A DNA stretch of 64,000 bases, taken from contig NW_001865046.1 in NCBI RefSeq assembly GCF_000002865.3, positions 393,492-457,491 on the forward strand. The letters run 5' to 3'. The position numbers and the translations under genes are program-made. Below the pieces are notes generated by a model. That model worked only from the letters and a program-made list of their open reading frames with translations, had not been told where the DNA came from and ran no database searches. This DNA comes from Monosiga brevicollis MX1 (taxonomy: Eukaryota > Opisthokonta > Choanoflagellata > Craspedida > Salpingoecidae). How positions within the stretch are numbered: position 1 is the stretch's first letter; each line of letters starts with the position of its first letter. Positions 9,149 through 64,000 of the stretch are shown one piece after another.

Positions 9149-12008
9149 CTACAGCAAGTGGCTGCTAGCGTTGGATGGAGGGCCGCCCACCTCACTAGCA
9201 TTTGATGCCGCCCGCATGCTGCCGTTAGGTTGAGGCTGATATTTGTACGTCTTGAACGTGTTGTAAATCACGCCGTCATTGCGCACCAGCAATAGTGGCA
9301 CGGTGTAGCTGGCAGTACAGACAGCCTCAGATGACTCGACGGCCTATGGACAACCAAATGAGTCAGCGAGCACAAGTGGTCGCAGCAAAAGAGGTGGCCA
9401 TCAACGGCTCCCTTGGGCACAGCGCGTTCCGGAAACGACCCCGAACCTCGGCATACGAAGGCGGCTTGCAGAAGAGCAGCTCCTCGCACCGGTAGTACGT
9501 GCAAGCAGGTGCCGGGCCAAAGAAAACCTAGAATCCGAAAACAAGGCCGGGCAAAAGTCAGCTGCAGCACTTGGTGTTGGTGACAAGACAAGCCACGTCG
9601 GCTCAAGAGCCTAGGTTCTGGAGCTCGCATGGAACCCGCATGTTTGCTTTTCCAATGACAGTGAAGCTTATACATTATTGTGGATGTGCAAATTCATGTA
9701 TTTGTGCGCGAAACAGAAGACGGCTGGGGAGGAACGTACCGTCAACATGGTGCTGAAATGCTCGCCATAGAGCTCTACCATTGGTCCCAAGGACTGTTGC
9801 GCAGCAGCATCAAAGGGTTGCATATAAATCGGAACGAGAGCGTGTCGATGAGGTGGTCATGCGAGCGATTGAGCAAACAGCAAACATGTGTGCTTTTCCC
9901 CCACCTTGACCTCATCGACCAGAGGCACGGGCGTGATGGGCTTGACCATTTCGCCTTCAATGTGTTGAACAAATCGATCAATGGTGTGATCAAAGAAGCT
10001 GTACTCGAGGCGAGCTCCCGTGCAAACCGTCCAGATGGATTGCTCGGAGAGCTGGACACCGCTCCCCTTGTCCGCCTTACTGCGGGCACGCTCAAAAAAC
10101 ACCGAGGCTGAGCCATTGCTCGATTGAAACTTGAGGTACTCGGTTTCCTTTGTCTCAGGATTGACTCGGCTAATGGCCACCTTCTGAAGTTGGGAGACAC
10201 ACTCGTTGTCCACAGGCACCACTGCGTTGCGATCACAGCGGTGAATGGTGCAAACCATTTCCTTGTTTGTTTGTGCGCACTGTGAAATAGGGGCCAGAAG
10301 TGTGGAAGGTCGGTGAGCAATACATGCCACGTGCAAAGAGCTGCACGGCGGGTGGCGCACTTACCTTCATTCGAACTTGGCGATCGTAGACAATGTAGCG
10401 GTCGTTGCGCGAGGCAAGGTTGGCTTCGTTGTGTTGCTATCATAGTTCCAGGACATGAGAACCCCAAAAAAATATCCGTACGGAGGTACAAGTGAGTGTC
10501 AAAGGTGCGAGAAGAGAGGGAGGAGGGGGGTTGGGCACAGGCAAATGTGGTGCGGGAAGAAAACGGTCTAGCTTGGTCTCACGCACATTGGTATGATCGT
10601 TCACAAGCTTGAGCGCGTGCCAGCCTTCGTCCGAGCAATCCGGCTGGCCCTCCTCATTGAGGCGAAAATAGTATGTGGCCGCGTTGGTACTGCGCGAGCG
10701 ATGAAAGAAGAGGGCTTCACAGCCGCTCTCCATATACATGTCCGAATGCGACTTGTTGCTCTGCTTCTTCTTACTCGGTTTGGAGATGACGCGCAACGGC
10801 TTGGAGGGGAAGGTGCCCACGTCGCGCACCTCGTTCGACTCGTCATTCTGAAAAAACACCTTGAGCTGTAGGCAAAAGCTCTTCCGCTTGTCAGTGTCAG
10901 GAATAAAGAGCTGACTCGCTGTGCCGTGAAACTCGCTGTCCGCCAATCTTGAGAGCGGAATTTCAGTTTGGTGGGTGTGCTCGTAGTTGAGGTGCATGCT
11001 GACAAAAACACGTGGTTCACCTAGCTGCGGATGGTTCCAGTTTCGCCCCGACAGGTGGATCTGCGGTGGCGGGCAAAAGTAGCGCTTCTCGTTGCCATAG
11101 CTCTTTTGAACCACACGGGGATGGAGGATGGTCAACTTCATATCTTGTGCGCCCGTGTGTGTCGATTCAAGGTACGCCTTAACGCAGCTCTTAATGTCAA
11201 CCACGTTTGAGGATCCAGGGGTAGCGGAGGGCTGAGAAATATCGTCTTGGCCATGGGTAGTCAGGTCCGTGTTGCCGAAATAAGCCGCTTGAGACACGGA
11301 TGCTGCTTGTGAATAGTGAGGCATGGTGCTTATGGTTGAAGATATGTCTGAGACCAGGGGTTGCATGTTTGAGACCATGGGCTGCATGTTTGAGGCCACG
11401 TGTTGCATGCTCGAGACCATGGGCTGCATGCTTGAGACCATGGGCTGCATGCTTGAAGCCACGGACTGCATGCTTGAAACATGGGGCATGCTTGAAGCCA
11501 TGGACTGCATGCTTGAAACATGGGGCATGCTTGAAGCCATGGACTGCATGCTTGTAACATGGGACATGGTGGTGGTAGCCATGTTGTAAGAGGTGTCTGA
11601 GGTCGGCGGCAAGTCCGAGTACATCTGGGCCGAGGCAGAAGTGCCCATGCTCATTTGAGAGGCCAATGTGGGAGGGTACCCGGAAACATCTCCTCGGTCT
11701 AGAAGGGCTGTCGACGCAGCAAGCGAGGGCAACGGAAACAGTGATGAGCAAAATGCCTCAGGGTTGGGTGACAATGAGAGAAATGGGGGTTTAGAAATAC
11801 CCATAAGAAGGGGCTCCCTCAGGATCGGGGTAGGTAAAAGGCTGGTATGTTGGGAGCAAGAACACAGTACTTACATGCAAAGTTTCCATCCGCCAATGAT
11901 GGGAGAGCCTGGCTCACGATGGGGTTATTCGAGGCAAAATCAAGCTATTTTGCAAAGTAAGCGGTCCAATCAGTCAAACCCGATAGATTGCCAGGTGAAA
12001 GTGGGTAG

Positions 12009-29464: not shown

Positions 29465-32400
29465 ATGTCCGATGCCGATACACCCCAGATGGTGAGTGAT
29501 GTGCGCACAGCGTTTGCGTTGGCCTATCGACCTGGTCATGGCACTAATGCTCTTTCCTTGCCCAGGATGCACCTGCGGTACCAGGGATAGACGAAGCTCA
29601 GGGTGATCTCAGCATGACCCTGTTGCCCGATGCCGATATCCCGACAAGCGACACTGCACCATCTCGTGAAGCAGATCCCAGCTCAGAGCCGGTGAACAAA
29701 GAGCAGGCGCCCGCCAGTGCAGCCCCCGAAGGAGCTGATGCATCAGATACACCAAAAACAGTAGAGATTACTGACACACCCACCTTGGTGGACCAGGCAG
29801 CCACGTCTACCACCGCAGATGGGCTAGGATCGGCCGCAGATCAGCCCCCCATCACCGACGCCTTGGCAGGCACAGCAGTTCCTGATGGTGCCGATGCTGC
29901 AACCAAAGAGACTCCCGCTGCTGAAGACGAGGCTCCCGCTGCTGAAGACGAGGCGCCCGCCGTCGAAGACGAGGCTCCCGCTGCTGCTGAAGACGAGGCG
30001 CCCGCTGCTGCTGAAGAGAGTCCCGCCGTCGAAGACGAGGCTCCCGCTGCTGCTGCTGAAGAGGCTCCCGCTGCTGCTGAAGAGAGTCCCGCCGTCGAAG
30101 ACGAGGCTCCCGCTGCTGCTGCTGAAGAGGCTCCCGCTGCTGCTGAAGAGAGTCCCGCCGTCGAAGACGAGGCTCCCGCTGCTGCTGAATACGAGGCTCC
30201 CGCTGCTGCTGAAGAGAGTCCCGCCGTCGAAGACGAGGCTCCCGCTGCTGCTGAAGATGAGGCGCCCGCTGCTGCTGAAGAGAGTCCCGCCGTCGAAGAC
30301 GAGGCTCCCGCTGCTGCTGCTGCTGAAGAGGCTTCCCCTGCTGAGGAGGACGCTTTGGCTGCCGAACCGACACATGGTACCGAGGAAACTGTACCCGAAG
30401 AAGCACCTGCGCCGGTGGTCGAGACGTTTTACGAAACAGACGGACAGTCTGCTCCAGAGGTCGCCGGCCTGTCTCCTAAGATGCTGCAACTCCATGCAAG
30501 CTTGGGCTTTCGCGCAGGACAACACGACGCCCTTCACTTGGTGGGTGATGATACCGTGGCCCTGGTGGCTGGCAATTATGTCGTCTTTCACCCCATTGAT
30601 CGGCGCAATGTCAAAGCCAACGAGCGCCGCTACCTTCGGAGCACAGGTGGGCGCTCTTTAGGCGCGCTTGCTATTCACCCTTCTCGCGAGTACATCGCCG
30701 TTGGGGAGAAGGGCCAGGACCCAGTCATCACCATCTACCACTTTCCATCATTGCGCCGTTTCAAAATCCTGCGTGCTGGCACCGAGCATGGCTACGCCAG
30801 TCTGGCTTTTAGTCCCGATGGCGAGCAGCTCGCTTCGGTTGGCATGCACCCCGATTATCTTCTCAGCGTCTGGGACTGGCGCGCCGAGGCTCCGCTCCTG
30901 CGCACAAAGGCCTTTAGCAGCGACGTGTGGCGAGTTACCTTCAATTCCGATCTGCCTGGAGACCTTACGACGTCAGGGCAGGGCCACATTCGCTTTTGGA
31001 AGATGGCCCGCACCTTCACTGGCCTCAAACTGCAGGGCCAAATTGGCAAGTTTGGACGCACCGAGCTGTCCGACATTGCGGCTTACGTCGAGCTGCCAGA
31101 TGGCAAAGTTCTCTCAGGTTCTGAATGGGGTGGCCTGCTGCTCTGGGAGGGAGGCTTTATCAAGTGCCAATTGGCTCTCCCAGGTGAACGACCCTGCCAT
31201 ACGGGTGCCATCGACGTTGTGATGACCCTGGAATCCGGTGATTTTGCCACCGCCGGCGAAGATGGCATTGTGCGCATCTGGGATTTTGAAGCCATTGATA
31301 CGGCAGACCGTGACCACGACTCCCCCTATGCTCTCGTCAAACCCGTGCTCGAGCGAAAACTCACTCCCGGTGCTCGAATTCTCTCCATGGCGCACACGCG
31401 CATCCCGGGCGACGAGGGCCAGCATACCGTCTATCTGGCCATGACGGAATCGGGGGATGTCTGGCAGGTTGACTTAAGCATGTCCATGACAGCCCGCGCC
31501 CCCTTCATCCTGTTTAGCCTCTATTCCGGCCTCGGCGGCCTCGCTACCTCGCCCGTGGCTCACCGCGCCATCGTGGGCGCTGCCAGTGGCGCGCTGCGGC
31601 TCTTCAACACTGCCACTGATAGCCTCTTGCACACCTGGCGCCCTTCGACCAAGACGAGCGTCACCAGCGTTGCCTGGTTGCCCCGCGAGCAAGACCCTTC
31701 AGGGCGGTCTTTTGTAGCGGCCTTTTCCGATGGCGTGCTGCGTCTCTTTTGCATTGAAGCCGACAACAAACATAGCGAGGCTATCTTGCTCACCCAGGCT
31801 CTCAAGCCACATTCGGGACCAGTGGAGCAAATTGCTATGACGCCCAGCGGCCATCGCCTTGTGACCCGGGCAGCCGACGGCGTCATGTTCATCATGGAGG
31901 TGCAGGCCACTTCTCTCACTCCGGTGGGGTTTGTGCAGATGGATGCACAGGCTCGTGTACACAGCGTCCGCTGGAATGAAGAGGGCACCATGCTCCTCAT
32001 GGCCCTGTCTGAGGGCCGCGTTTGGGAGGTTATGGCTCCTCACCTGGGCGAACACGACACGAGCGTCAGCTTCCGCTTACCCACCAGCATTGCCCGTCGC
32101 TACACTTTTGAGAGCATGCTGCACATTCTCGAGCCCAAGCCAGTCAAAGGCAAAGGGAAGGCAAATGGAAACGATGCTGACAAGGGCAGTGGCAGCAGTG
32201 CAGACCAGGATCACACCGATGCAGATGATGCCGAGGCAGAGGAGGGCGAAGAGGAGGCGTCGGCTGAGCCAACCTCGGCCACCAAAGTATTGCCCGACGT
32301 CTTGGCCGCTCACTACGGCGCGTCAGACGGCACCATTGAACTCGTCGTCAATGGGGCCGACGCTGGGTACCTCTATACCTGCAGTTTCGACATGCCTGCA

Positions 32401-35400
32401 CCTTTGCGTGCTGAGCGCCTTCATGGCTGTCCCAAAACGCGCGTCACAAACTGGATTAAGCATTCCGCTCGACGCCTCGACGTATTAGCCCTGGCTGATG
32501 GCACGGTCCTGGTCCACGAAAGTGGAGATCGCACCCAAAGCCTTTCCATGGGGCTACACGACTGCGATGCCGGCGCCATACACGAGCTTGCCTTTTCATT
32601 TGACGGTGCCTTCCTCCTCACTGCTGGCCGAGACGGCAATGTGTTTGTGCTGCGTACAGCCCTGAGTGATGCTGACGAGCCCACCTTGCTGCGAGATACA
32701 CCGTTGGGGCCGCCCCTTGATCTTGTCAACGCCCCACCGGCCAAGGACATCCTCGAGCCCCAGGCTTACAGTCTTGAGGAGGCTCTGGAGAAGGCCGAGC
32801 GCGACCGCTTGCTGATGACGGCCGAGGAACGGAAAGACTTGGTGCGCCAGCGCCTGCGCACTCTTCGCGCCGAGTTTGACGCCATCGTCCGTGACAACGA
32901 ACGACTGCCGCTCAATCGACAACTTCCGCACGATGTCCTTTTGGTGGATGACGAGCTGCAGCAAGACATGCAGGAGCAGTTGCAACAGGATCTCGTTCGG
33001 GTGCGCGCTGAAATGAATTGGGACTTGGAGCGACACAAGGTCGCACACCGCAAACTACGCGAGCACTTTCATGGCCCCGTGGATGAGCATCGCATTGTCA
33101 TCAAAGCGCTGGGTACTCTGGACGAAGTGGCCAGTTTTCGCGTCCCGGCGCTCTCCTCTGAGTTTCGTCGTCGGTCCTCTCTTCTCTTCGAAGAAGCGCC
33201 TGCCATTCGTCACATCCGTGACCGCAAGCTACGGCGCTCCCGCCCTGACGTGCACGGCAACGGGCTGAGCTCTGAGCGCACGTTTATCGGGGCTGTCCAA
33301 GAGACTGATGCGAGCGGCGAAGGGGGCGAGGGGCGTGGTGATGGCCAACGCAGTGTCCCTGGCACCGCGGGCGAAGCTGGAGCGTCGGGTGAGGGGGCCT
33401 CACGCTCCACACTCGGCACGCGCTCGACGATGCGCGGTGCAGATCTGACCGCGCGTGGGCGCCTTGAAGCTGAGATGCTCAAGACGATGGAGCGTCGCGA
33501 ACAGCGAGAGCGCCTGCAAAACCGATTGACTGCACACGCCCAGCTCAAGCCGAATGCTGACAAGATGGATCCCGCAGATGAAGCACTGCTTCAGGACATG
33601 CAGGAGCACATGGGCGACTTTGTGCTCAAAACGGACTCGCGCTATCAGGTCCAGCCGCATGAGCGGGTGAACACGAGCCGCAAACGCAATCAACTCATCG
33701 TTTTGCGCCAGCGCATTGTGGATGGCAAGAAGATTTTCAACACCCACGTGCATGCTCTTTTGCGCAACAAACGCGCTGTGCTTGCTCGCCTCGAAGTGCT
33801 GCATGCACAGTTGACGCAGGTTCAGCGCGAGCTCGGTGAGACTGGCGCCCCTCTTCCCGCCGTACCTAGCCTGGATGCTGAGGAGGAGCCGGAGCGCCGC
33901 GACCAGTACACGACGGAATCTTTACGCCGCTTCAAGCTGGAGTACGAAGCGCAGTTGCGCAAGGAGCGGGAGCAAGCGGCTAAGGCGGCCGGCGGCGGCT
34001 TTGGTGGCTTTGGTGGCGGAGGTGCCCCAGGTGCCGCTGGCGGAAATGTGGCAGGCGCTGGCACAGACGAAGACGTGAGTTTCGCGCATCCCAAGCAGAT
34101 CGTATTGCAGAGCGAACTGGCAAATGAGGCTGAATTGCTCGCCGCCGTCTCCGAGGACACGGCTCGCCAGTCCCTGTTGGACTTTCGTCGACTATTGTTG
34201 CAACAGTTTCGCGTCGAGATTGAACAGTTTGATGAGCAGGTGGCTGTCCTGGCCAATGCCAAGTTTGAGGTGGAGGTTCGCTTGAAATTTGCCGAGTACA
34301 AGCACGTCCTCTACTACCAGGAATTGGTGCATTTGCGGGTGTTTGACATTCGGGAGCGCGAGCTTGAGCAGCGCCGCCAAGCCAAGCAAGATGAGTTGGA
34401 TAAGTGCATTGCGGAGCAGCGGAGACAGGCCGAACGGCTTGCCGGGAAGCGGCAGGAGCTGACAGAGCTGACAGCCAAGGAAAAGGGTGTGCAGAGCACA
34501 TTTCAGAGTGTGGCCAGCGACCAGGGCCCCCATGCTAAGGTGCTGAACCGTATTTTCAAGCGCCGACTGCGGCGCGTGGCCGAGGGTTCTGAGAGCGAGG
34601 ACAGTGACGAGGAGGACGAGGACGAGGAGGAGTATGAATCTTCCTCGGATGAGTCGGATGTTGGCTTGGACTTTGATGACATGGTGTGTCCAGCAGGCGT
34701 GAACATGAGTGTGTTTGACCGCGTGCAGGCGCTCCGTGCGCAGCGTCAGGAGCTCGAAGACACCATAGCCTTGACCAAGAAGGACATGGAGCGTCTAAAG
34801 AAGGACAACGACACGGGTGAGCGGCGCGAGAAGAACATGCGCGCAGCCCTGGACGCGGTTGAGCGCGAGATTGCCTCGTTCCAGGTTGAAAAGCAAGCTC
34901 GACTCAATGAGCTGTACATTGCCATTCCTCTTCGTGCGCGTCAAATTCTCCACCACGGTGAGTTCCAACCAATAGATCACGTTGCCATTTTCCCCGCTTC
35001 CTCCCTCGCACACACACACACGCATTCTTTTCATTTCTTTTTTTCTTATTTGAATCCGACTGCTTGCTATCTGCGTCCGGAGTAGAATACGGCGACCTCC
35101 CACGTTCGTTGAGCAAGTCGTTGGTATTTACGACCACGGCCATTGGGTCGTTAAAGGATCGCATAGAAACACTCAAAGCCGAACGTGCAACGCGACAAAA
35201 GGAGTTTAAAGACATGCGGGCTCAGCAGGTTTGTCATTGAATACTTTGTACTTCCCTTGCTGTTGGCCTCGGCTCTTTTCGAATTGTCATTGCTCTTGCG
35301 CGGTGCGTATGGGGTCAAACCACTCATGTTGATGATGGTCTGATGGCATGAACCGTGTTTTAGGGCCAACTCAAGCACGTCGTGAGGCAGAAGGAAGAGC

Positions 35401-49468: not shown

Positions 49469-52400
49469 ATGGGGGCCACCCGCCCAGCGCCGGCGCTCCG
49501 GCCATGGCTCTGCAGCATGCTTGTTGCCCGAGTGCTGGTCGCTGTCCTCTTCTTGGGCTCGGCGCTGGCCCAAACAGCCAACCTGCAAACTCAGTGTCCC
49601 TCCCCGTGCGTGCTTGAAGAAGGGGATACGCTCACGGTGGTCGTGGCACTCTCAGCAGCCACCTCCTCCAGTGTCGTGCTGCAAGTCGACGTGAAAGACA
49701 CTCTGTCAAGCTCCTCCCCCACCATGGATGATGTGTCCCCAAGCACGCAGTATGCCGTCTTTGAAACCGGACAAAGTTCCGTTGAACTTACCTTCACGAT
49801 TGATGAAGACACCACGCCTGAACTCAACGAGACTTTATACGCCATTCTTTCTAACCCATACGCCAACAGCGTCACGCTGGGCACCGCGGCTCTGCCCTTT
49901 ACCATCCTAGCCAATGACAGCCCGTATGGCACCATTACCCTGACCCCCGTGGTGGGCACTGTGACAGAGGGTGGCACCTTTATCATTAATGTGGCGCGCA
50001 CCGGCGGTCTTTTCGAGGCACAAAACATTTCGTGGACTATTGCCAATGGTGCTGCTGATTTTGTCGTGTCGCAAGGCGTATATCGTCTTGCTGCCGGTAT
50101 CAGACAAAGTTCTTTTGCCATTGCCACCATCAACGACGATCTTCCTGAGTTGCGTGAAACCTTTGCCCTCAGCATCATTGGCATCGACGGCGGGGCGGCG
50201 GCATCCACAGCCGCTGTATCCCTCGCCATTGCAGCTTCTGACTACCCATGTGGCATCATTACGGTCGATGGCGCCACCACCACAACGGTTGAATCCAGCT
50301 CGTTCGCCGTCGGCCTGCGGCGAAATGCCGATCGCGCGCTCGGTGCAGTCGATATTGTGTTTTACCTCGAGCAAGCCTCCGCACTCTCTGCTGAAAACCA
50401 GGCCATGGCCGGAGCTGATTATGTCAACGCCTCGGGTGTTGTTCGCCTTGAGCAAGGCGATACCACGGGCACCATCAGTATCACCGTGCTGGATGATTCC
50501 GAGCCAGAAGCTGAAGAATGCTTTTTCCTGCATCTGCGCACCTCCACGACAGATGCTCGCATCGACAATGTCACCACACTTTTGTGCATCGCAGGCAATG
50601 ACATGGGTGCAGGCACCTTTGCCTTGGCCGCAGCCAGTCAGCTTGTTGACGTGGATGAACCGGCCACGGGCTCTGTGGCAGTCACTTTGACTGTGGTCCG
50701 CCAAGTTGCCCAATTTGGTACTGCTCAGGTGGCCTGGACGGCTTCCTCGAGTGGATCTGCCAGTCCAGACCGCTTTTCGCCTAACTCTGGCGTGGTGTCT
50801 TTTGCTGATGGCCAAACCGAGGCCGCACTGGTCATCACCATTCTTGGCGATGACGACCCTGAGCTCGAAGAGCAAATTCTTGTCCAGCTTCAGTCTGTCA
50901 CCGCTGCCGTTGCTGGTCAAGCCGCCCTGGTATTCCCGACATCGGGCGTCATTGCTGTCGCCGCCAATGATGATCCCTACGGCATCTTTTCACTCAACGT
51001 CACTGACGTTGACGAAGAGGGAACGCCTATTGTGGAAGGTTCGAGCCTACTCGTGGAGCTGACGCGTGCTGCCGGCACCTTCAACACAGTCTCTGTGCCA
51101 TGGACCCTGTTGCAAGGTGACAACCTAGCGCAGACCGACTTTCAGGCTGTTGAAGGGAATGTCACTTTCACCGCCGGCGCCACCAGCGCCAGTTTCAACC
51201 TTCTTGCGTTGAACGATGGCATTGCAGAATTCAAAGAAGCCTTTGTCCTTCAGCTAGGTACACCCTCCTTGGGAGAGCTGGGCAACACCGTGTCTGCCCG
51301 CCTGTACATCCCCGTCAATGGTAATCCCTCGGGTCAGTTTAGCATGACCTCGACCGAGCTCGCTTTTACCGAGCCCAGTGCTGCCGAAGTTTTGCGACAA
51401 GTCCAGTGTGGCATTAGGCGCACTGGCTCCACCCTCGGCGCTGTCTCGGTGCGCATCCGCACCAGTTTTGTGGCACGACCTGCCGTTGATGGGACACCCA
51501 CCCAGGCCGCGACCCAACTGGAGGACATTGTCATCAATGAAGTGGATGTTCAATTCGCTGCTGGCGAGACCACCAAGCAGGTGCCCTTTTACATCCTTTC
51601 AGATGATTTTCCGGAGCCTCGGGAAACTTTTGAAATCTATCTTGCTTCCATCGTCAGCCAAACCGAGCCGGGTGCGGCGGCCGTCACTGCAAGCAACACC
51701 ACGACTGTGGCCATTGCACCCAATGATGTCGCAGCTGGTCGCTTTTCTCTTGCCAACGCCTCAGCTGTGGTTAAGGTAGGCCGCTCTGATACAGTTGTTT
51801 GAGGCGAACGCAGTGCAGACAGCCTCCTTGTATATCGTACCTGAAAGATTGCGGCAAAGAATAACATGCTTGTGCTCTGTAGGTTCAGGAAGGAGACGTC
51901 TTCAACCTGGAGGTCCGTCGCGAATTGGGCAACTTTGGCACGGCCGCTGTAGCATGGCAAGCCATCAACGCAGATGGCCAGCTTTCGCCCACGAAAGGTT
52001 CGTAATATTCCTGCCTCCCAGCCTTGTCTGTTCACATGTTGGTGCCTCCTCCTGTCCCCACTTCATATCCCTTCCCCCACTCACATTGAGTGGCTCCGTG
52101 GCAGGCTGGCTGCATTTTGACGGTAGCCAAGCAAGCGCCACCATTGCTTTAAATGTCATTGATGATGCCACCCCTGAGTTGGCAACGACTTTTGCCCTCA
52201 ATCTCACCAACATCACAGCGCAAATTTCAGACCAGGCAGAGATGGCCTCAGCCCCCCAAACGTCACTCACCATTGAAGTTGCCGAGAATGACGATGCACG
52301 CGGCATCTTTGCCTTGAGTGATCTCTCACCTGTGCAAACCGTTCTTGACGAGCCAACAAATGGTGCTTCAACATCACTGGAATATACGGTTGTGCGCACG

Positions 52401-55400
52401 GCAGGAGCCTTGACTACCGAGGTCATTTCATGGACACTGATGACCCCATGCAACTCGAGTGTAGCTGGCTGCGACTACCTCACCAACAGTGACTTTGCCG
52501 CCCTGGGCGGAACCCTGACCTTCGACGTTGGGGTGCGCGAGCGCTCCTTTAATGTTACAGTCCTGGACGATGACACGCCAGAGCTTGAAGAGATTGTCTA
52601 TGTGCGCTTGAGCCACGCCTCAAATCCTCAGCTGATCGGCAGCCGGACACAAGCCCAGCTGACGGTATCTCTGAACGACGACCCCTTTGGCATCTTTTAC
52701 ATTGATGTGGACGGCCTGACCATGGTCGTTGCTGAGGGCCAGCGCCAACCAGCAGAGGTGGCGATACCCATTGCGCGCGCCGCAGGCACATTCGACACCG
52801 TGGAAGTACTTTGGTCCCTGCGCGGCGTGTCAGCGGGCTTTAACGATCCCTCACCGGACGTGGCCCCCACCAACGGCACCCTGACTTTTGGCCCAGGACA
52901 AACACAAGCTACGCAGGTTCTCTCTATTTTGCCCGACGCCCTACCAGAGCTGCAAGAGACTTTCAACTTTATTCTGAACGGCTTTAGCGATGGTTCGCCG
53001 GCTGAGACCAGTCTTGATGGTACACGCAGCGTTTTGCTCGTGACCATCAATGCGTCAGACTACCCGCATGGCGTCTTTGAGTTCAACTCAACGGATCAAA
53101 CCCTCAATGAGACGTCGGCTCCCATCATCACCCTGCCTGTGCATCGTCGCTGGGGCACGTTGGGAGAAGTCCGCGTCGAAGTCATGGTCACTCTCCAAGG
53201 CGCCAGCACGGCCGATTACACGCCTAGCACGACGCTCTTTCGATTGGATTTTGCTGATGGCGAGGCCCAGCGCAACCTCACCTTTCAAGTGAACCACGAC
53301 AACATCCCTGAAGTGAACGAGAGCTTGACCTTTTCCATCCTCACCGTGCAGCTCGTGGATCGCCAATCAACGGAGCGCCCCATTGTGGGTGCTAATAATG
53401 CTGTGACCTACACCATTCTCGAAAATGACGACGCCCGAGGTGTTTTCGAAGTGGCAACGCCGCTCCTCGCGGTCCCAGAAACTTCCCGCACCCTCGACTT
53501 TGCCATCCATCGCAGTCGGGGCCTGTTTGGGGCTGTATCCGTGCATTTTCGCGTTCAAGGGGGCACGGCTGAGTTGGGCAGCGATATACTGGGTGTCGAG
53601 GCTGGAGTCCTGATGTTTACCGAAAACCAAGCCTCGGCCAGCTATCAGTATTCTTTGGTGGACGATGCCGTGCCGGAGGAGGCCGAAACTCTGACCATTG
53701 TTATTGTCAACGTTTCGGCGGGCCGACTTGGCTCTGACACGCAGACGCAGCTCATGATCGAAAAGAATGACGACGCCAATGGTGTCGTTTCTTTCCACGC
53801 TTCGGCTGTGTCAGCAGCGCTGCAACGCTACGCCGAAGTCCAAAACAACATCACACTCTTGGTGCAGCGTACCCGGGGACTCTTTGGTAACGTGAGTGTT
53901 GAATACAACGTCACAAGCAACAGCGGCAGCAGTGCGAAGAACGACCTTTTGCCGCACAATGGCGTGTTCTGGTTTGCTGAAGGCGTTGACGAAGCCGAAT
54001 TGCCGCTCGTTATCAATGAGGACTCGACGCCCGAGCTGGAGGAGTCATTTACAATTCAACTTGGTACTGTATCAGGTGGTGCGCGCTTGGCCACGAGCAA
54101 CACACACGCGGTTGTGACCATCCTGGCCAATGATGAGCCCCTCGGCATTGTGCAGCTTGACCCCATAACTGAGGTCGGCATGCAACTGGAGAACGGGTCA
54201 CGGGTCCTCGCTTTTCCCGTGTACCGCTCGGGTGGTACTCTTGAGCCCATTGTTGTCACGGGTGACTTGACAGTGGCTCGCGAAGACGATGGCGTCTGCG
54301 TTGCAGATGCGGCATTTGGCGCTAGCGTTGTGACGGTCACAATGCCGCTCAACTCGAGCAATGCGCTTCTGGTTCTTGACCTCCCCTCAACCGCCCCTGT
54401 TCAATCCGTCACTCAGTTCTGCCTGCAACTGCGACCCCCAACCCGGGAAGACGGTTCCGTGCTCCAGCTCAATGGCGGTGACTCTCCACGTCTGGGTGCC
54501 ATCCGGCGAGTGGTGGCAAGTCCCAATCCAGCCATTCTTCCGGCATTCTTCGCCATCGCGCCTCCACTGCAACGCATTGCAGAAGGCGCACGCGGGTTGT
54601 TTTCGATTTCGCGCCACACGGGTACCTACGGCTCCGTGACCTTGCAGATTGACTGCTCTGGCACTGACTGTGACGCCCTCATCCCCTCAAACAATACCTT
54701 TGTTTTCCCGGCCGGTGAGGCTACAGCACAAGAGTTTAGCGTAGCGGTGCTTGATGACGATATTCCAGAGATGACCCGCAACGTGACCCTGTCACTTCGT
54801 GTGGTGGCGGGCAATGCTTCCGTCACGCCAAGTGAGGCCGAGGCCACCGTTTCAATCCCGGACAGCGATGATCCGTATGGCATCATTAGTCTGGAGCCGA
54901 GGCAACAGCAGACGCAACAAAATGGGGGCGTGGCTTCAGCCACCGTGCTGCGAAGTGCCGGCCAATTTGGGGCCGTCACAGTCGAGTGGAGGGTTGAGAC
55001 CGATGACGCTCAGTTTGGCGTCGACTACAACACTTCTGGTGGCACGGTGGTGTTGCTACCTAACACCACCAATGCGTCGCTGTCCGTACAACTCTTGCCC
55101 ACAAACAACAGCGATATCAAATCCCTGAGTATCGTCATTGCGGCCGTCTCGAACCCGTTGGGAACGCCGTCATTGCAGGCTAATCGCAGCGATGTCCTGC
55201 TTACCAATTGCTTTGGCTGCACGGTTGGCTTTGGCTCCGACGTTATTTTTGCTGTGGAAGGCAACACTTCGGCCGGTTTCGTGATTGAACGCACTCCAAA
55301 CGCCTTTGACCATCTGGAGCTGGCCTGGTCGCTTCTAAACGCTTCTGGGCAATTTTTGAATACCAGCGGCATTGTATCCATGCCGATTGGTCTCGAATCA

Positions 55401-58400
55401 GCCTTTGTACCACTTCTTGCTCTCGATGACTTGACACCCGAATTTGAACAGGCGTTTCAACTCGAGTTGCTAATTTTGCAAGGAGAGACGCAACTGGGTA
55501 CTTCAACCACGGCTACGGTGCTTATCCCCGCCAACGACTACCCCTACGGGCGCTTCGAGCTGACTCCACTAACGGCCAACTTGAGCGAGTCGGCAGGGCT
55601 TGATTTCGTCACCCTGACTGTGCAGCGCCCAAGTCCGAGTGGTTCTATGGGCCATGTTGTCGTCTCGCTCGATGTAGATGATGGTGCTTTAGCCCGCTTT
55701 AGCGTGGTTGATCGTGTCAACGGATCTTCGTTTGCTACACTTGGGAATTCATCGACGATGCAGTGCGCAAGCTATTGCTTGGCAGCTTTGAATGCCACGT
55801 GCGATGCGTTTGAGTTTGACAGTGCTACGACCACCTGTTATCTGCTGGCCGCGAATGCGTCTTTGGAAACGCCTGCGGTGTCTGGCACCCTCTATCTACT
55901 GACGCAGCCCGAGCCGACTGTTGCCCCCCTTCAGTTTCGTGATTTTGTGCTGACGCAACGTCTCCTGACCTTTGCAAATGGCCAGCGTGCACACACAGTT
56001 GGCCTACAGGCCTTGGACGACAACGTCACCGAGGGCTGGCAAAATTTTACAGTCCGCCTTTCCTCCGTGGCCTTGCAGTCAAGTGCAACGACCACAGTGC
56101 ATGAGCTGAGCACTGCTCCCGGTCTCAGCTCCACGCATGTGACAATTTTTCCCAGTGATGGAGCCGGCGGGGCGTTTGCATGGCGCAACTCGACGGCCGA
56201 GGTCGTCGAGGGCAGCACCTTATCCGTCATTTTGGCACGAACTCGTCCAGCCATTGTCGATATCACCCTGGATTGGATGCTCATTGATGGTGCCTCGGAT
56301 TTTGTAAATAGTAGCGGTAGCCTAGAACTGAGAGCAACAGATGAGTTTGCCACGGTGTCGTTGACGGCTTTGGCCGATCAGATGCCAGAGTTGACTGAGA
56401 ATTTCACCTTGCAAATCGCTTCGCGCGAAAACTATGCAACGATTGAGACGGGCGGCGCTGAAATGACCATCTCCATTCCCGCGTCTGATGACCCTTATGG
56501 TCGCATCTCTGCTCGGCTCAGTGGTTCTGGAGAGGAAGGCACCGTACTTGAGTTGGCGCTGACACGCGCAGGGGGCCACCTTGGAGAGTCCAGGGTATTC
56601 TGGTGGTTGGAAGGAGCTGACAGCCAAACAAATGTTTCTTCCGGCGTCTTCTTCTTTGCTGCTGGTGCTCTGAACAGCTCACCCAACACGGAGGCTGCAT
56701 ACATCCTGGTGCTGGATGACCCCGAGCCAGAGCTGGCAGTCAACTACACCATTCACTTCAATGTTACACAAGGGCGGCCGCGTCTACTGCAGAGGACCCT
56801 TGATGCTTCACTCCCAGCCAACGATGACCCCTGGGGCCGCGTGGGTCTTGCAACAACGCAAACACGTAGTTTCCGCGAGCGGGCTGCCAACTATACCATC
56901 CAGCTCGTCCGTCAGCAAGGCTTGGTTGGCAGTCTGGAAGTCGCTTATTCTTTCATGCCTGGCACAGCCTCAAACAGCGACTTCAGCACCTCCAATGGAA
57001 CAGTGGCATTTGTGGGATCTGAACGCGTACAAAATATCACGCTCACAGTCTTCGATGATGGTCTCGTCGAAGGCAATGAGACGATCATCCTGGCCCTGGC
57101 CGTTGTTGTCGGGCAAGGCGTTGTCGACGCGCCGCACTACACCCTGACCCTGCTTCCTTCAGACAGTGTTGAAGAGCTCGGCTTTTTTACGCTAGCTGGG
57201 AGCACCGTGATTGACCCAACAGGCCTCAACCCTTCCACCGTAGCCATCCACCGCAGTGCCGGTATCGTCGGCGCTGTCCATGTCGATGTTGCCTTTTGGT
57301 CCCTGCCCCCCTTGGATGCGTTTACCAGTCTGCTCGCCAATCGTACCGGAAGACCCATGGCAGACGCTATCAATACCTCGTCAGTCGAGACTTGCGCGCA
57401 GGCATGCGTGCAAGTGAGCTGCAATCTATTTGCTTGGGAAGCTGATCAGCAATGTGTGCGCCTACGTACAGACGTATTCGGGTCCGTCACGCTGAGCCGT
57501 GGTTACGAGCTCCGCGGCAACATGCTCCCAGCCATGGCCGGCTTGGATTTCAATGCCACGACAGTGTCAATTGTTGTACCCGATAGCCAGCGTGATGCAG
57601 TTGTCCCTGTACCCGTGCTCTCTCGCGAGTCGGCCCCCCTTCCGCAGCGGCGTCTCTTTGCTGCTATCGTCAACGCGACTGTAGCAGGACTCGAGGCACC
57701 GGCCGGCCCGCACTTTGACGCATCCAACCGCTCTGTCGTGATTGATGAGTCTGGCCAGTATCGTGGCCAATTCACCTGGTCGACACTGTCCTGGCGTGTA
57801 GCTGAAGGGGCTGACTTCAACGTGACCATCAACCGAACCCTCTCTCTGTGCGAGGGCGTTGATATCACATGGCAGCTCGAGGGCCCGACCGCTGCCTCAA
57901 CTTTTGCAGAACTGACCGGCACCGTGTCATTTGCTGAAGGCCAGGCCACAGGTTTTCTGGCGTTGCACACCATCGATGACGAAGAACCAGAGGAGGCCAC
58001 CACGTATACACTGACGCTGGGCAATGGCTCGGCCACAGGCCTCGCGCAAGGGCAAGGTAGCTTCTATGTAAACAATTCCGAGATTGCTCACGTCGTGGTG
58101 GAAGACAGCGATTTTCCATACGGCATGCTGCGCATTGCTGAAGCTCCGCTCGCTGTTGAGGAGGGTGCCAATTTGACAATAACCGTTGTGCGTGATTATG
58201 GCACACTGTCCAATGGCACCTTCTCGTTTGAGATTCAGGGCAGCATCGCCGTGACCCCTGCCATGGGCACGCTCGAGCTACCGGAGGGTGTGAATTCTAT
58301 CACATTGAGTCTAGCTGTGGTCAACAATGACGAGGGTGCCGGCGCAGAATCTTTTGAGATCGTACTGCTGCCCAACACGACGGGCGGTCTTTCCGTCAAT

Positions 58401-61400
58401 GCCTCGCAGGATCGCGCGGTTATCGTTGTGTTGCCCAATGACGAACGCGTCTGGCTCAGCGCTGATGAGATCATAATCGACGAGGATAACAGGCCGAGCG
58501 TCAATGTGACTGTGGTGCGCAATACTTCGCACAGCAACCGCGCTGTCATGGCCAGCTGGAATCTGACGGGTGCGTCCGACGTCTTGGAGCGCTTCGTCGC
58601 AACCTCGGGGATGATTACGCTGGCACCTGACGATTCTGAGGCCATGATCGAGCTGGCTGTCGTGCCCGACGCAGTTCCACAGGTCTCGGCGGTCGTGGAG
58701 CTCAAACTCTTTGCAATCGATCAGACTGCTTTCATTCCTGCGCCCGAGGCCACGGCGCAAGTTGTACTCCGCAGCAGTGACCGAGCGTTAGGGTGCGTAG
58801 CTCTTACTGTCAACTCCACGAGCGCACCCGAAGGCACGACCGTGGTGGCTCGCGTCGTGCGCAGCTGTGGCTCCTTTGGCATTATTCAAGGGCGCGTAGC
58901 TCTGGACGGCACCGGCGAGCTCCCTGCAGATGTAACGGCAGATATCGTGGCGACCAACGGTCAGAACTTTCTCCTGACAGCTGCTACTCCTGAGGTCGAG
59001 CTGGCATTTGAGATTGTGGCGGACGGCGCCCCCGAGTTGACTGAGTCCTTCCTCTTGTCTTTGGTCGATTTATCGTCCAATCTGGACAATGCGTACAATG
59101 ATGCTGCCACTGTGCTGACAGCACCCATTGCCGTGGCCATTCCGGAAAATGACGACGCCCGCGGCACGCTGGGCTTTGCTGTTTCCAGCTCAAGCTGGAA
59201 AGAGGATCAAGGCTGGGTGGAACTTGCCATCACGCGCGAGCGAGGCCTTTTTGGTACAGTCTCAGCCACCATCAACGCTGGTACGGGCACCGTGGGCGTG
59301 GGCGATGCTCAGCCTCTGAACGCGCTCATGCCCACAGCGCTTGCCAGCGTACATGCGCAGTATGTGACAAACCCGACCGTGATCGACGATGTACCGTGCT
59401 ACCTGGCTGCAGATACCGCAGGTTGCAGGCTGGTGTGCGGCGAGCGCGGCACCGTCATTCAGTCGCTTTCGACCGAAGTGATTGGCCAGCCAGCTCTCCT
59501 GCAGACGGCCACGGCGCTTTTTGCGTTTGTGCCTCTCTACCAAGTGCAAGGAGCCCAAGGCCTGGGTCCGACCCAATCCTTGTTGTGGACCTACAGCTCA
59601 AGTTCCGCTCGCTTTGCCAACAAACAAAGCGTCTTGACGTTTGCGCCCACCGCTGCAGTCATGATTGAACTGACCAGCGCAATAGCTGTCGCTGTTGTTG
59701 CCAATGACGTGTCTAATGGCAATCTGAACCAGCCCTGTGTGCAATACATCCCCATCAACATTGGCGGCGAAGCTGCTGTGACACAGGACGAGTCGGTCGT
59801 GGCGGTGGACGCACCGTCTGCGAAGAACATTGCAGTGCAGCGCTGGGTTACCGATGTCGGTGTGGCCGACAGCCTTGCTCTGGTAACATGGCTGTTGACC
59901 AACGATGGCGACCTGCTGTATCAGCTGTTCAACGGGACGCTGGCATCAAATTGGACCGCAGTGCTGCAGGATGTGACTGGATTTGCTGCAAATGAGGAGT
60001 ATTTGGCTGTCTGGACCTCAGCCTCACAGCCCATGGTCTATCGCTTGTTTGGTAGCGAGCCCGCACTGGCTCCTATGGCTTCCCTTCAAGTGAGGTCAAA
60101 CTCGGGGTCAGTGATTGTGAGTGCGTGGACGGGTCAAACCTGGATGCAAGGCTCTGAAGACGGCTCTGTGACGCTTCAGCGCTACGATAAGGACGCCTAT
60201 GCCTTCGTGGAGGATGGAACCATGCACACTGACCTTGTTCAGCTGCAACAGATCAACTGCCAAGACGCTGTGGGGGTGTGCGTCCTGTCCAATGGCTCAC
60301 ATGCTCAAACCTTCCGCGTCAGTGCCATGACTCCACTGGACGCTTATCTATCAACTGATGAAGCCGTCTTTGCCGAGGGGCAGAATAAAAGTGTGGTGAT
60401 GCTTCGAATCATCAACGATGCCGTTGCTGAGGGTGAGCTGCTCATTGATTTTGAACTGACCGCGACTTCCGGCGGGGCGTCACTTCGTAGCCCCAGCAGC
60501 AGCACCCATCGCTTAACCGTCGCAGCCAGCGATGCCTTCCACGGTGAGGTCTCTTTGTTAAGCTGGTCGGATCTGACACCGGTGATCCTGGTTCCAGAAG
60601 GCACCACCCGGGATGTGGCTGTGGTCCGCACGGGCGATTTCGCCAGGCCACTTGAGCTAAACTGGACGTGTGCCTCCTTGGATGATGATTCAATGTTCAG
60701 TGCAGGCACCACGTTGGTTGGTCAACCTGACAGCTTGATTTTTGCCAACTTTTCCACCACCGCTGTTCTGCAGTTGGCACCTCCTGAGGATGAAGTGCCG
60801 GAACTTGCACAGAGTTGCCAGCTGCGCTTGAGCACGGATGCCAATGGTGTTTTCGTAGACCCAGTTCAGACAACAGTTCTAGTCCGTGTACCAGCCAATG
60901 ACAGTCCCTTGGGCGGCGTGGGGTTCTTAGCGCCATACAATCTGACTTTAGTAGAGGGTAACTCGGTGCAGGTGCAGATGGAGCGTATTGCGGACGCCTT
61001 TGAGACCGTGGTCGTACACCTCGATGTCGTGACGAGCAGTGGCGCTGACGCTAGCGCCCAGGTATCGCTTACCTCCAACGCGATCGTTTTCGAAACTGCT
61101 GGGACGCAAAGCATCACCCTTACGGCGACCAACGACGCCCTACCTGAATTGCTTAGCACATATGCAATCGTTGTTCACAACATCACCGTTTACCCTGAGC
61201 CTGATGAGGAGCCATATGGACCTGACTTGATCGTGGGAACAGAGACACTCCGCGTGTCCATCCCAGCAAACGACGCACCCGCGGGCAATGTCTCCGTCGA
61301 GGCGACTTTACAACATAACGGCACGGCGCGCTTTGTGAGCGTCGACCTCGGCCGCATGGGCGCAACTCTGGCAGACGTAGTGGCCGATCTTCGCATACAG

Positions 61401-64000
61401 TTGGACGATGGCGAGCCACTCGACACTGCTGCCGTGACCCTGACTGCGACATCAAACAATGTGCATCAAGACCTGCTTCTGCCCACCGTGCCGCTGGCAG
61501 TGGGTCAAACGATCCATCTTATGGTCACCGCCACTGCCACCTTGGACGGAGCTTCACGTGTTATTCACGAAGAAGTTGTGTCCCTACCCGTGACGACAAG
61601 CTTGGCAGGTGGTGTCATCTCTCTTCCCTCGGTGTTGTTGCTCGACGAGAGTGGTCCGGCAGTCACGCTGCGCTTGCAGCGGGAAAACGGCACCTTTGGG
61701 CTTGTTTGTTTTGACGTGAACCTGCCCGATCGCGAGCAAGTGACAGTGACGCCTGCTGCACTTGTATGTCTGCAAGATGGTGAGGCGGAAACGCAGTTGA
61801 CTGTGAGCGCTGTGGATGATCTCACGCCAGAAGTGGATGAGACCTTTGTGCTCACCCTGACCCCACTCGTGGCCGGCAGTAACAACACAAATTTACCGAG
61901 CTCCATTCGTAATGCGTTGCAACCAAGCACAGCTGCGTACGTGTTTGCAAACATTGCCACTCGCTGCATTGTTGTCGCCAATGATGCGCCGGCCGGTCAG
62001 GTGGCCTTGACTGGAGCCAGCTTCGTAGTTAATGAGGTGACTGCTCAGCGCTTTTTGACTCTCAATTTGAGTCGGGCCGCAGGGCTCTTTGGACAGCTCA
62101 ACGTCACGCTAAACATCACCTTTACGGGTGCGCGTGGAAGTGGTAACCCAGTCTTCCTTGCTTCCGACCTAGGCTCGGCCGCAGAAGGCGACGGCTTTCG
62201 CGTTCAGACCAGTGTCACCATGGTGGCTGACACCGTGTTGCAGGCGTTTGACTTGCCCATTAGTGACGACTTGCCCACAACAACTGGCGCTGGCTTTTTT
62301 GTCAACATTGCGACCGCTTCCCTGGCTTCGCCTGCAACCCACTTGTCCAATTTTACGTCGGTTCAGCCAACATGGGCCAGTGGTACGGTGGCAACGCTTG
62401 TAGAAACAGATGCCGTGACGTTTGGTCACTACGCATTTGCCCTCCCCACTGCGACTGTGGAGGAAGGCACTCGCCTCGACGTGGCCGTTCAGCGATCCGT
62501 CGGCTACCTTGCGTCGGCCATCGTGGGCTGGCGACTGGTGGGTGATGCGGTTACTTTGGCGGCTAACTTTGAAGGCCCGACGTCTGGAACCTTGAATTTT
62601 TCTGCATCCGCTCAGTCGCAAGTATTTTCGCTATATGCGCGCAATGATAGCCTACCCGAGGGACCGCAGGTGTACCAACTACAGCTGCAGATGGTGAGTG
62701 AGGGTTATTCGCTCGATACGGCGGCCATGGTCATAACGATTCCCGCAAATGACGGCGCCTTGGGCCACTTTGAGCTGCTGAGGCCTGCCGCACCTTTTGC
62801 CCTATCAGAAGGTGCCAGCCTCACGCTAACGGTCAATCGCCTGGGTGGTGCCCTGGGCACAGCCACGGTGTTTTGGAACGTCTCCTTGCCAGATCAGGTG
62901 ACCACCAGCAGTGGTAGCCTTGTCTTTACCGAGGGTGTCAGCACAGGCAGCATTGTCCTCGAGGTGCTTGACGATGCAGTACCTGAGCTCAATGCTACGC
63001 TTGCTGTGCGACTGACAGCCACTGCTGGCCAGTTCGATGGCCAAGCCACCTTTGATGATTCGGTGCTGCCCGTGGTACTGTTGGCCAGCGATGACCCCTA
63101 TGGTGTGGTGGGTGTTGAGGCAGAAGCTACGGGTATTGCAGTCGTTGCGGGTCGGGGGCGTGCATTAGTGGGCCGCGTCGAGCGCTCGCGTGGGACCCTG
63201 GCAGACGTGGACGTGACTCTCTCCATCACCGGCCTTACATCGAGTAATGTGCTTGGTGCAACCCTCCCCACATGTGCCACGGAGGCTCTCACTCAAAACT
63301 GTCAGATCAGCGTTTTATTGGACCTCGATAGCGCTTCCACGCGCTTCCAAATGTTTATTGCTGAAACGGTCGCCCTCAATTCGTCGCGAGACATTCTCGT
63401 GCGTGTGGAAAATGCTCAAATAACGGGACACAGCGAGCCTGTACCTTTGAATAGTACCCTCAAGACATATGCAGTGCGCCCAAGCACTGCTCACGTGATC
63501 GGCAGCTTGGGTTTGGTGACGCCTTTGATCACTACAGTGAGTGAACCAGATGATGGCACTGTGTCCGTCGAGCTGACTGTAACGCGCCCGGTTGGAACCT
63601 ACACTCCCATGGGCCGTGGCTACGTGCAAGCAGCGTGGGCACTTGTCAACGCCCCCGCGTCTGCCTCGCTCACGCCTGCCTCAGGCGTGGTGCTCTTTGC
63701 TTTTGGTGATGCATCTGAAAACATCAACCTACAGCTAGCTGCGGACACGGTGCCCGAGGAAGCGGTGGCAGTAACGCTGCAGCTGCAGACCCCTGTGACG
63801 TGCTTTGTTCTGAACAACGGCGCGTGCTCTTCGGGGAATACAAGCGCCAACCCCACGTATGCCCTTGATGCGACACGAAGCGCTGTGGCTTTGACGGTGG
63901 CTGAAAGTGATGACCCCTATGGGCGCATCGAATTTGCTGCCGCACGACACATGGTGTCCGCCTACGCGCAGCTTGCAAACATTACACTCGTACGCTCGGG
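49469..64000 (+). CDS. Giant secreted Calx-beta repeat protein with EAR-like insert (ADGRV1-ectodomain-like), 3' end outside the window
   Basis: Exons 49469..51775, 51883..51997 and 52105 to the window edge, the last with an unbroken frame of almost 12 kb. About 4,770 residues are visible. A signal peptide (VLVAVLFLGSALAQ) starts the protein. About 37 Calx-beta domains of ~110-125 residues follow. Each ends near an acidic Ca2+-site boundary such as NDDPYG, SDYPHG or NDDARG, and internal motifs are DDxxPELxE and ARTGGLFEAQNISWTI-like strands. Between ~59750 and 60330 the repeats are interrupted by EAR/EPTP-like sequence (VTGFAANEEYLAVWTS, PMVYRLF). Short Cys modules are inserted at ~55770-55850 and 57400-57470. 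Calx-beta chains form Ca2+-stiffened extracellular rods, and the Calx-beta plus EAR combination is known from ADGRV1. Whether a GAIN/7TM follows cannot be seen. Confidence 0.9.

Follow-up and report, generated by a model that had tools for sequence, protein, structure and literature searches.

Two paralogous giant genes of the choanoflagellate Monosiga brevicollis probably encode adhesion receptors of the ADGRV/VLGR1 type

We analysed a stretch of 64,000 nucleotides from the choanoflagellate Monosiga brevicollis MX1 (contig NW_001865046.1, positions 393,492 to 457,491 of the forward strand; referred to as the window). The genome is almost certainly that of M. brevicollis by sequence as well: an exon of its Munc18-like gene agrees in 63 of 63 aligned residues with chain A of PDB 2xhe (UNC18), the M. 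brevicollis protein, and the next matches, syntaxin-binding proteins, reach about half of the bit score. A very long gene begins in the window and leaves it at its downstream end. This gene is probably one of two paralogous genes of M. brevicollis for giant adhesion G-protein-coupled receptors (GPCRs) of the ADGRV/VLGR1 type. ADGRV1 is the human hair-cell link protein that is mutated in Usher syndrome. By computation we found the fold of a Calx-beta rod, Calx-beta domains split by inserts, a GPS motif, hydrophobic segments and a C-terminal pattern. The resemblance to ADGRV1 that had been pointed out in the original prediction is supported by the GPS, by matches in the PDB to adhesion GPCRs only, by seven hydrophobic segments and by a C-terminus of class I PDZ type.

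The gene runs on the plus strand from position 49469 to the window-equivalent position 66365, and its model of three exons encodes 5,560 amino acids (Table 1). The exon structure was inferred from splice signals and domain continuity. Exon 1 ends at a GT donor at 51776, and the introns (51776-51882 and 51998-52104), which the original prediction had not mentioned, were placed by their GT..AG borders and so that Calx-beta repeat 7 reads through unbroken. Up to the window end, no stop interrupts the frame at 51795, which continues in frame in the following 10 kb (L002:2-2365). Genome-wide profile searches covered the 39.47-Mb assembly of 57 contigs, where the window is C49:393492-457491. The search for GPS returned for this gene an uninterrupted frame of 4861 amino acids, in which most of the rod, the insert, the GPS and the hydrophobic segments are found together.

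Using Pfam, we detected Calx-beta in the frames P0001 (131 bits) and P0002 (263.5 bits). An own hidden Markov model (HMM), grown from one repeat and iterated, found 40 Calx-beta stretches over the whole protein, of which 38 have an independent E-value (i-E) below 0.01. After merging three split pairs and discarding one weak match within an insert (i-E 0.22), 36 repeats were counted, one of which is weak (i-E 0.035). Since the last repeat straddles the window end, 35 lie wholly within the window. The very long coding frame with its Calx-beta array had been described correctly; the earlier count of repeats for the visible part was about 37. A structure model of the repeat was built from the 24 of the 36 repeats that are whole in one exon and match well. 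It reached a predicted local distance difference test (pLDDT) value of 87, and the closest structures in the PDB are the calcium-binding domains of CALX and NCX1 (E 1.9e-8, template modelling score 0.78). Four acidic residues (E9, D71, E75 and D106) are each kept by at least 90% of the 24 modelled repeats, with the consensus D..PE..E. Residues of this kind bind calcium in NCX. In a Calx-beta domain of rat VLGR1, Asp4716, Glu4720 and Glu4723 are among four conserved residues, with a spacing equal to that in the repeats of the window gene (PMC8220163).

The GPS motif scores 45.7 bits (Pfam cut-off 22.5), stands before the first hydrophobic segment and reads CVYW..GWLDQGC..CRCNHFSTFAVL. Behind the GPS, the window gene has retained STFAVL; the consensus of the tethered agonist has been given as TxFAVLM (eLife 2025, PMC12716839). 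A search of the PDB with the C-terminal 787 residues matched 16 sequences at E<=10, every one of them an adhesion GPCR, and a profile of both paralogues matched 19, again all adhesion GPCRs. The PDB matches of the C-terminal part begin up to about 75 residues ahead of the GPS (for example 270-386 and 305-385). After the GPS, seven non-overlapping hydrophobic segments of 19 residues were found at thresholds from 1.0 to 1.6, the last two sharing one hydrophobic stretch of 48 residues. The C-terminus, -DTAL, fits the pattern of a class I PDZ ligand. A scan with NCBIfam gave nothing useful. The original prediction had suggested looking beyond the window for GPS/GAIN and 7TM segments, and in the rod for an EPTP match. 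The GPS and the seven hydrophobic segments are there and the tail is not a single-pass one, but the EPTP match is absent.

Three Calx-beta domains of the window gene are each interrupted by an insert. According to our HMM, the first fragments run up to HMM positions 42, 35 and 47, and the second ones resume at 44, 40 and 44. By our own mapping of HMM to model positions, the insert sites fall into the loop region that links strands 28-36 and 50-55 of the Calx-beta model, which we named C and D. Two of the inserts, absent from the original prediction, are of PAN type, and the Pfam scan of the whole frame found two PAN_1 stretches in P0002; the third, of about 339 residues, is discussed below. 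In AlphaFold models of human and zebrafish ADGRV1, a LamG-like domain, a cysteine-rich domain and the EAR domain each split a Calx-beta domain (PMC12481715). The cysteine-rich and EAR modules of ADGRV1 are therefore placed within single Calx-beta domains, and so are the two PAN-type modules and the third insert of the window gene. The cysteine-rich modules are of PAN type here, whereas the type of the human cysteine-rich domain is not stated in the accessible part of the published description.

The paralogue is located at C38:632983-650695 (L006 and L007). An eight-exon model made from splice sites encodes 5,586 amino acids, to be read as about 5,590, with five donor sites of exon 4 preserving the frame and their choice altering the size of the protein by as many as 50 residues. 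Its parts follow the same order as in the window gene, at a similar length. There are 37 Calx-beta repeats (39 stretches with two pairs merged, one weak), and one of the repeats is split by a cysteine-bearing insert, whose match in Pfam is limited to MANEC (E 0.06). A further insert of about 340 residues, its start placed by eye, is followed by a repeat that resumes at HMM 43. The GPS scores 45.6 bits, the hydrophobic segments behind it number seven at threshold 1.3 and six at 1.6, and the C-terminus, -ESAL, again fits the class I PDZ pattern. The tails of the two genes look related in a MAFFT alignment. The sole significant BLAST match between their C-terminal parts spans 49 columns (41%) around the GPS. 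Genome-wide, the GPS search found six loci. Four further GPS genes (L011, L012, L013 and L014) have matches to 7tm_2.

Several results weigh against the assignment to ADGRV. Pfam models of GAIN other than the GPS had no match at E<=10, and neither did 7tm_2 in the window gene; the genome-wide search with 7tm_2 found four loci, with the window gene and the paralogue not among them. Taken alone, the seven-transmembrane (7TM) part matches no GPCR in the PDB. An own HMM from the 7TM parts of four other adhesion GPCRs of this genome stayed below 0 bits on it, and locally shuffled copies reach 14.8. An alignment of the 7TM part with hhalign gave a probability of 0.1. LamG was absent from P0001 and P0002 at E<=1 and from P0003 at E<=10 in Pfam. 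The other adverse results concern the third insert.

The original prediction had seen the Calx-beta periodicity break at 59750-60330 and had taken the sequence there for an EAR block. The break is real, but it spans 59319-60335 (about 339 residues) and lies inside one Calx-beta domain. The EAR-like words quoted, FAANEEYLAVW at 59982 and PMVYRLF at 60030, are present, but an identity as EAR was not confirmed, and the expected match to EPTP/EAR (PF03736) was not obtained for the insert in Pfam at E<=10. The insert looks coding: it is free of stops in frame, and the guanine-cytosine content at its three codon positions is 0.61/0.46/0.64, against 0.61/0.47/0.61 upstream. Scanned alone at E<=10, it matched no Pfam family. 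EPTP was also absent from the whole window-gene frame at E<=1 and from the pieces carrying the paralogue insert. The genome-wide search for PF03736 found one locus, on another contig than the window gene. It is a separate EAR/EPTP protein (L001, C55:1103992-1107087) and the sole EPTP match in that search; since Pfam detects it at 51.2 bits, the profile works on the M. brevicollis genome. A phmmer search of the insert against the PDB gave a single irrelevant match (E 0.51), and an AlphaFold model made without an alignment had a mean pLDDT of 33.7 and was discarded.

More sensitive comparisons gave a mixed picture. An HMM of the EAR blades of LGI1 and the C55 protein, run against both full proteins, had its best weak match (-1.4 bits) in the paralogue insert and none in the window-gene insert. 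With controls, the paralogue insert scored 4.1 bits, which 1 of 400 shuffles and none of 162 Calx-beta windows attained. This HMM again did not report the window insert, whose score with an HMM of LGI1 only was reached by 68 of 400 shuffles. Chains of blades were then scored with a block position-specific scoring matrix (PSSM), using 60 shuffles first and then 1000. For the paralogue insert, the best single blade was matched by none of the 1000 shuffles, and chains of two to seven blades by 18, 14, 3, 3, 11 and 4. Among 159 Calx-beta windows, 0, 4, 0, 0, 4, 18 and 9 reached it for one to seven blades. For the window insert, 54 of 1000 shuffles reached the score of seven blades, as did 1 of 159 Calx-beta windows, and the scores of shorter chains were reached by 159 to 500 of 1000 shuffles. 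One of the 14 WD40/Kelch frames scored (L024; 24 loci had been fetched) beat the paralogue in chains of two to seven blades. For a single blade, Calx-beta windows of locus L009 came near the paralogue's score (17.2 versus 18.1). Hence, the block-PSSM test is not specific.

The inserts of the two paralogues are also unalike, with 221 of 500 shuffles scoring equally and 51 of 79 Calx-beta windows scoring higher. Internal repeats were not detected within the two inserts (243 and 106 of 300 shuffles), nor was a periodicity in the range of 40-56 residues (1510 and 1997 of 2000 shuffles). A comparison of the insert with LGI1 by hhalign was no better than ten controls, whereas the true EAR of the C55 protein reaches E 0.0023. 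Overall, the EAR tests give a weak positive signal for the paralogue and no significant one for the window copy, and their specificity is limited.

What the insert shares with EAR are place and dimensions. EAR is a seven-fold repeat of 44 residues (PMC7552766), and the EAR chain of LGI1 in the PDB has 347 residues versus the 339 or so of the insert. The insert begins near residue 3213. In human ADGRV1, EAR repeat 1 contains A3234, and I3153 belongs to Calx-beta 22 of 35 (PMC9262510). The insert is followed by 10 Calx-beta repeats in the window gene and by 12 in the paralogue, while the human EAR would be followed by 13 in the count of 35, so the length of the array is not equal. We lean towards regarding the insert as the equivalent of the ADGRV1 EAR propeller, on the grounds of position and size rather than of sequence.

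The absent EPTP match, a 7TM part that lacks a class B2 signature, the missing LamG and the existence of further Calx-beta-repeat genes in the genome would all suit a convergent assembly, in which a Calx-beta rod was independently fused to GAIN and 7TM, the insert is an unrelated domain and the likeness to ADGRV1 is one of parts only. However, cysteine-rich inserts and inserts of about 340 residues split Calx-beta domains in two paralogues, as published for ADGRV1, both paralogues end in PDZ-type C-termini, and orthology to ADGRV has been published for other choanoflagellate receptors. We therefore regard convergence as improbable. Even less credit is due to an artefact of assembly or gene modelling that fused two adjacent genes. 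The introns are inferred and not based on transcripts, but one frame of more than 4,800 codons carries most of the rod, the insert, the GPS and the 7TM part, and the paralogue shows the same order of parts; such an error is very improbable.

A different question is whether a receptor descended from ADGRV still signals. Rod and GAIN may have been kept for adhesion and the 7TM part may have drifted into a membrane anchor, which would be compatible with ADGRV descent. Because the 7TM part has drifted, this deserves a minor share of belief: it is so poorly conserved that the paralogues' only significant BLAST match is the one around the GPS, 7tm_2 does not match, and the GPS of the paralogue has HAT in place of the HFS of the window gene. 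On the other side, the window gene has its seven hydrophobic segments and the paralogue six or seven depending on the threshold, the alignment suggests that the tails are related, and STFAVL is kept after the GPS of the window gene. We thus consider a non-signalling link rather unlikely, though less so than convergence. Taken together, the gene is probably a new member of ADGRV in which a LamG-like domain was not found.

As an ADGRV-type receptor, the protein could act in the manner of ADGRV1. Calcium would stiffen the rod of 36 Calx-beta domains, and the PAN and propeller-like side modules may serve as adhesive heads. Self-cleavage at the GPS between HF and ST would leave the fragments bound to each other and STFAVL as a tethered agonist, which a pull on the rod would free. 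A PDZ scaffold might hold the C-terminal tail at the cortex. The whole would form an elongated link outside the cell that can turn pull into G-protein signalling, with the collar microvilli as a plausible site. We tentatively propose, as one possibility, that the ground plan of ADGRV1 predates animals, with PAN-type and EAR modules in the C-D loops of Calx-beta domains, a rod of about 36 domains, GAIN and 7TM, and a PDZ tail. Monosiga would have kept this architecture in two paralogues, the sequences of propeller and 7TM would have drifted past profile recognition, and the human cysteine-rich domain would be a relative of PAN. If this were true, an Usher-type microvillar link with most of its modular plan would already have existed in the ancestor that animals and choanoflagellates share, and the collar microvilli of a cultivable protist would offer a system for the role of ADGRV before hair cells. 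Our data also suggest that surveys based on 7TM profiles may miss such receptors and that the graft sites of modules within Calx-beta domains may outlast the sequences of the modules.

Table 1. Positions of the exons and domains of the giant gene within the window.
Feature	Position	Strand	Basis and remarks
Exon 1 (Calx-beta repeats 1-6 and start of repeat 7)	49469..51775	+	Translation; Pfam Calx-beta 131 bits
Signal-peptide-like start MGATRPAPALRPWLCSMLVARVLVAVLFLGSALAQ	49469..49573	+	Judged by eye; hydrophobic segment at residues 9-37
Exon 2 (part of Calx-beta repeat 7)	51883..51997	+	
Exon 3 (single open frame, continuing to window-equivalent 66365, L002:2365)	52105..64000	+	
Split Calx-beta 17, first half (HMM 10-42)	55593..55697	+	Own HMM
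PAN domain insert 1	55698..55937	+	Pfam PAN_1 29.8 bits, cut-off 21.4
Split Calx-beta 17, second half (HMM 44-113)	55938..56180	+	Own HMM
Split Calx-beta 21, first half (HMM 3-35)	57198..57296	+	Own HMM
PAN-like insert 2	57297..57530	+	Pfam PAN_1 20.2 bits, E 0.00055; slightly under the cut-off of 21.4 when scanned alone
Split Calx-beta 21, second half (HMM 40-112)	57531..57773	+	Own HMM
Split Calx-beta 26, first half (HMM 2-47)	59178..59318	+	Own HMM
Insert of about 339 residues in the C-D loop of Calx-beta 26; candidate EAR-type propeller	59319..60335	+	Own HMM for position
Split Calx-beta 26, second half (HMM 44-114)	60336..60557	+	Own HMM
Calx-beta repeats 27-36	60582..64000	+	Own HMM; last repeat straddles the window end

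Other frames were noted in passing. On the minus strand of L010 (C30:525001-535000), a Calx-beta frame of 2,494 amino acids lies within that locus, and a frame downstream of it contains cadherin-like words (DVNDNAP, by eye), perhaps belonging to a protein of Calx-beta and cadherin domains. L009 (C55:742001-752000) is part of an open frame of 10,648 amino acids with a Calx-beta match. In the window itself, positions 10443-11804 on the minus strand encode a LAG1 DNA-binding domain (Pfam, 111 bits), of the CSL type known from the Notch pathway. A plus-strand frame of 1,823 amino acids at 29614-35082 has a match to an EML-type WD40 propeller and a weak one to the Cfap43 coiled coil, and its product is possibly ciliary.

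VLGR1 was previously reported to be present in choanoflagellates (EvoDevo 2016, PMC4942974). More recently, the choanoflagellate adhesion GPCR subfamily theta was described as orthologous to metazoan ADGRV with a bootstrap of 83%, its N-termini being similar to ADGRV as well, and with orthologues in filastereans (eLife 2025, PMC12716839). A choanoflagellate ADGRV/VLGR1 is hence already in print, and the deep evolutionary claim is not new. The term EPTP does not occur in the accessible main text of PMC12716839. The window gene and the paralogue are not mentioned in the accessible portions of PMC12716839, PMC3251606, PMC13197933, PMC4942974 and PMC2805694. Within the literature searched on choanoflagellate adhesion GPCRs, Calx-beta and VLGR1, as far as its text was accessible, there is apparently no report of the two genes, of their split-domain plan or of a 7TM part divergent beyond 7tm_2.

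Compared with known systems, the closest in plan is vertebrate ADGRV1 (VLGR1, GPR98). Both have a signal peptide (a signal-peptide-like start here), a GPS, a 7TM part (seven hydrophobic segments here) and a class I PDZ C-terminus (its pattern here). The Calx-beta count is 35 by SMART or 39 by AlphaFold in vertebrate ADGRV1 and 36 in the window gene, and the length is 6,306 amino acids in the human protein versus 5,560. Vertebrate ADGRV1 differs in having a LamG/pentraxin-like domain, of which none was found here. In the window gene, moreover, an EAR is not recognisable by sequence and the 7TM part is missed by Pfam 7tm_2. The theta subfamily is choanoflagellate like the window gene, and homology to ADGRV has been described for its N- and C-terminal parts alike (PMC12716839); it was, however, defined by a tree of 7TM parts, and those of the window gene and the paralogue are missed by 7tm_2. 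With the EAR/EPTP propeller of LGI1 type, the insert of the window gene shares its size and a few EAR-like words seen by eye, but it has no Pfam EPTP match and its statistics are not significant. Finally, the repeat unit has its fold in common with the first calcium-binding domain (CBD1) of Calx/NCX. As is well established, those exchangers carry one or two cytosolic copies, whereas the window gene strings together 36, which are predicted to be extracellular.

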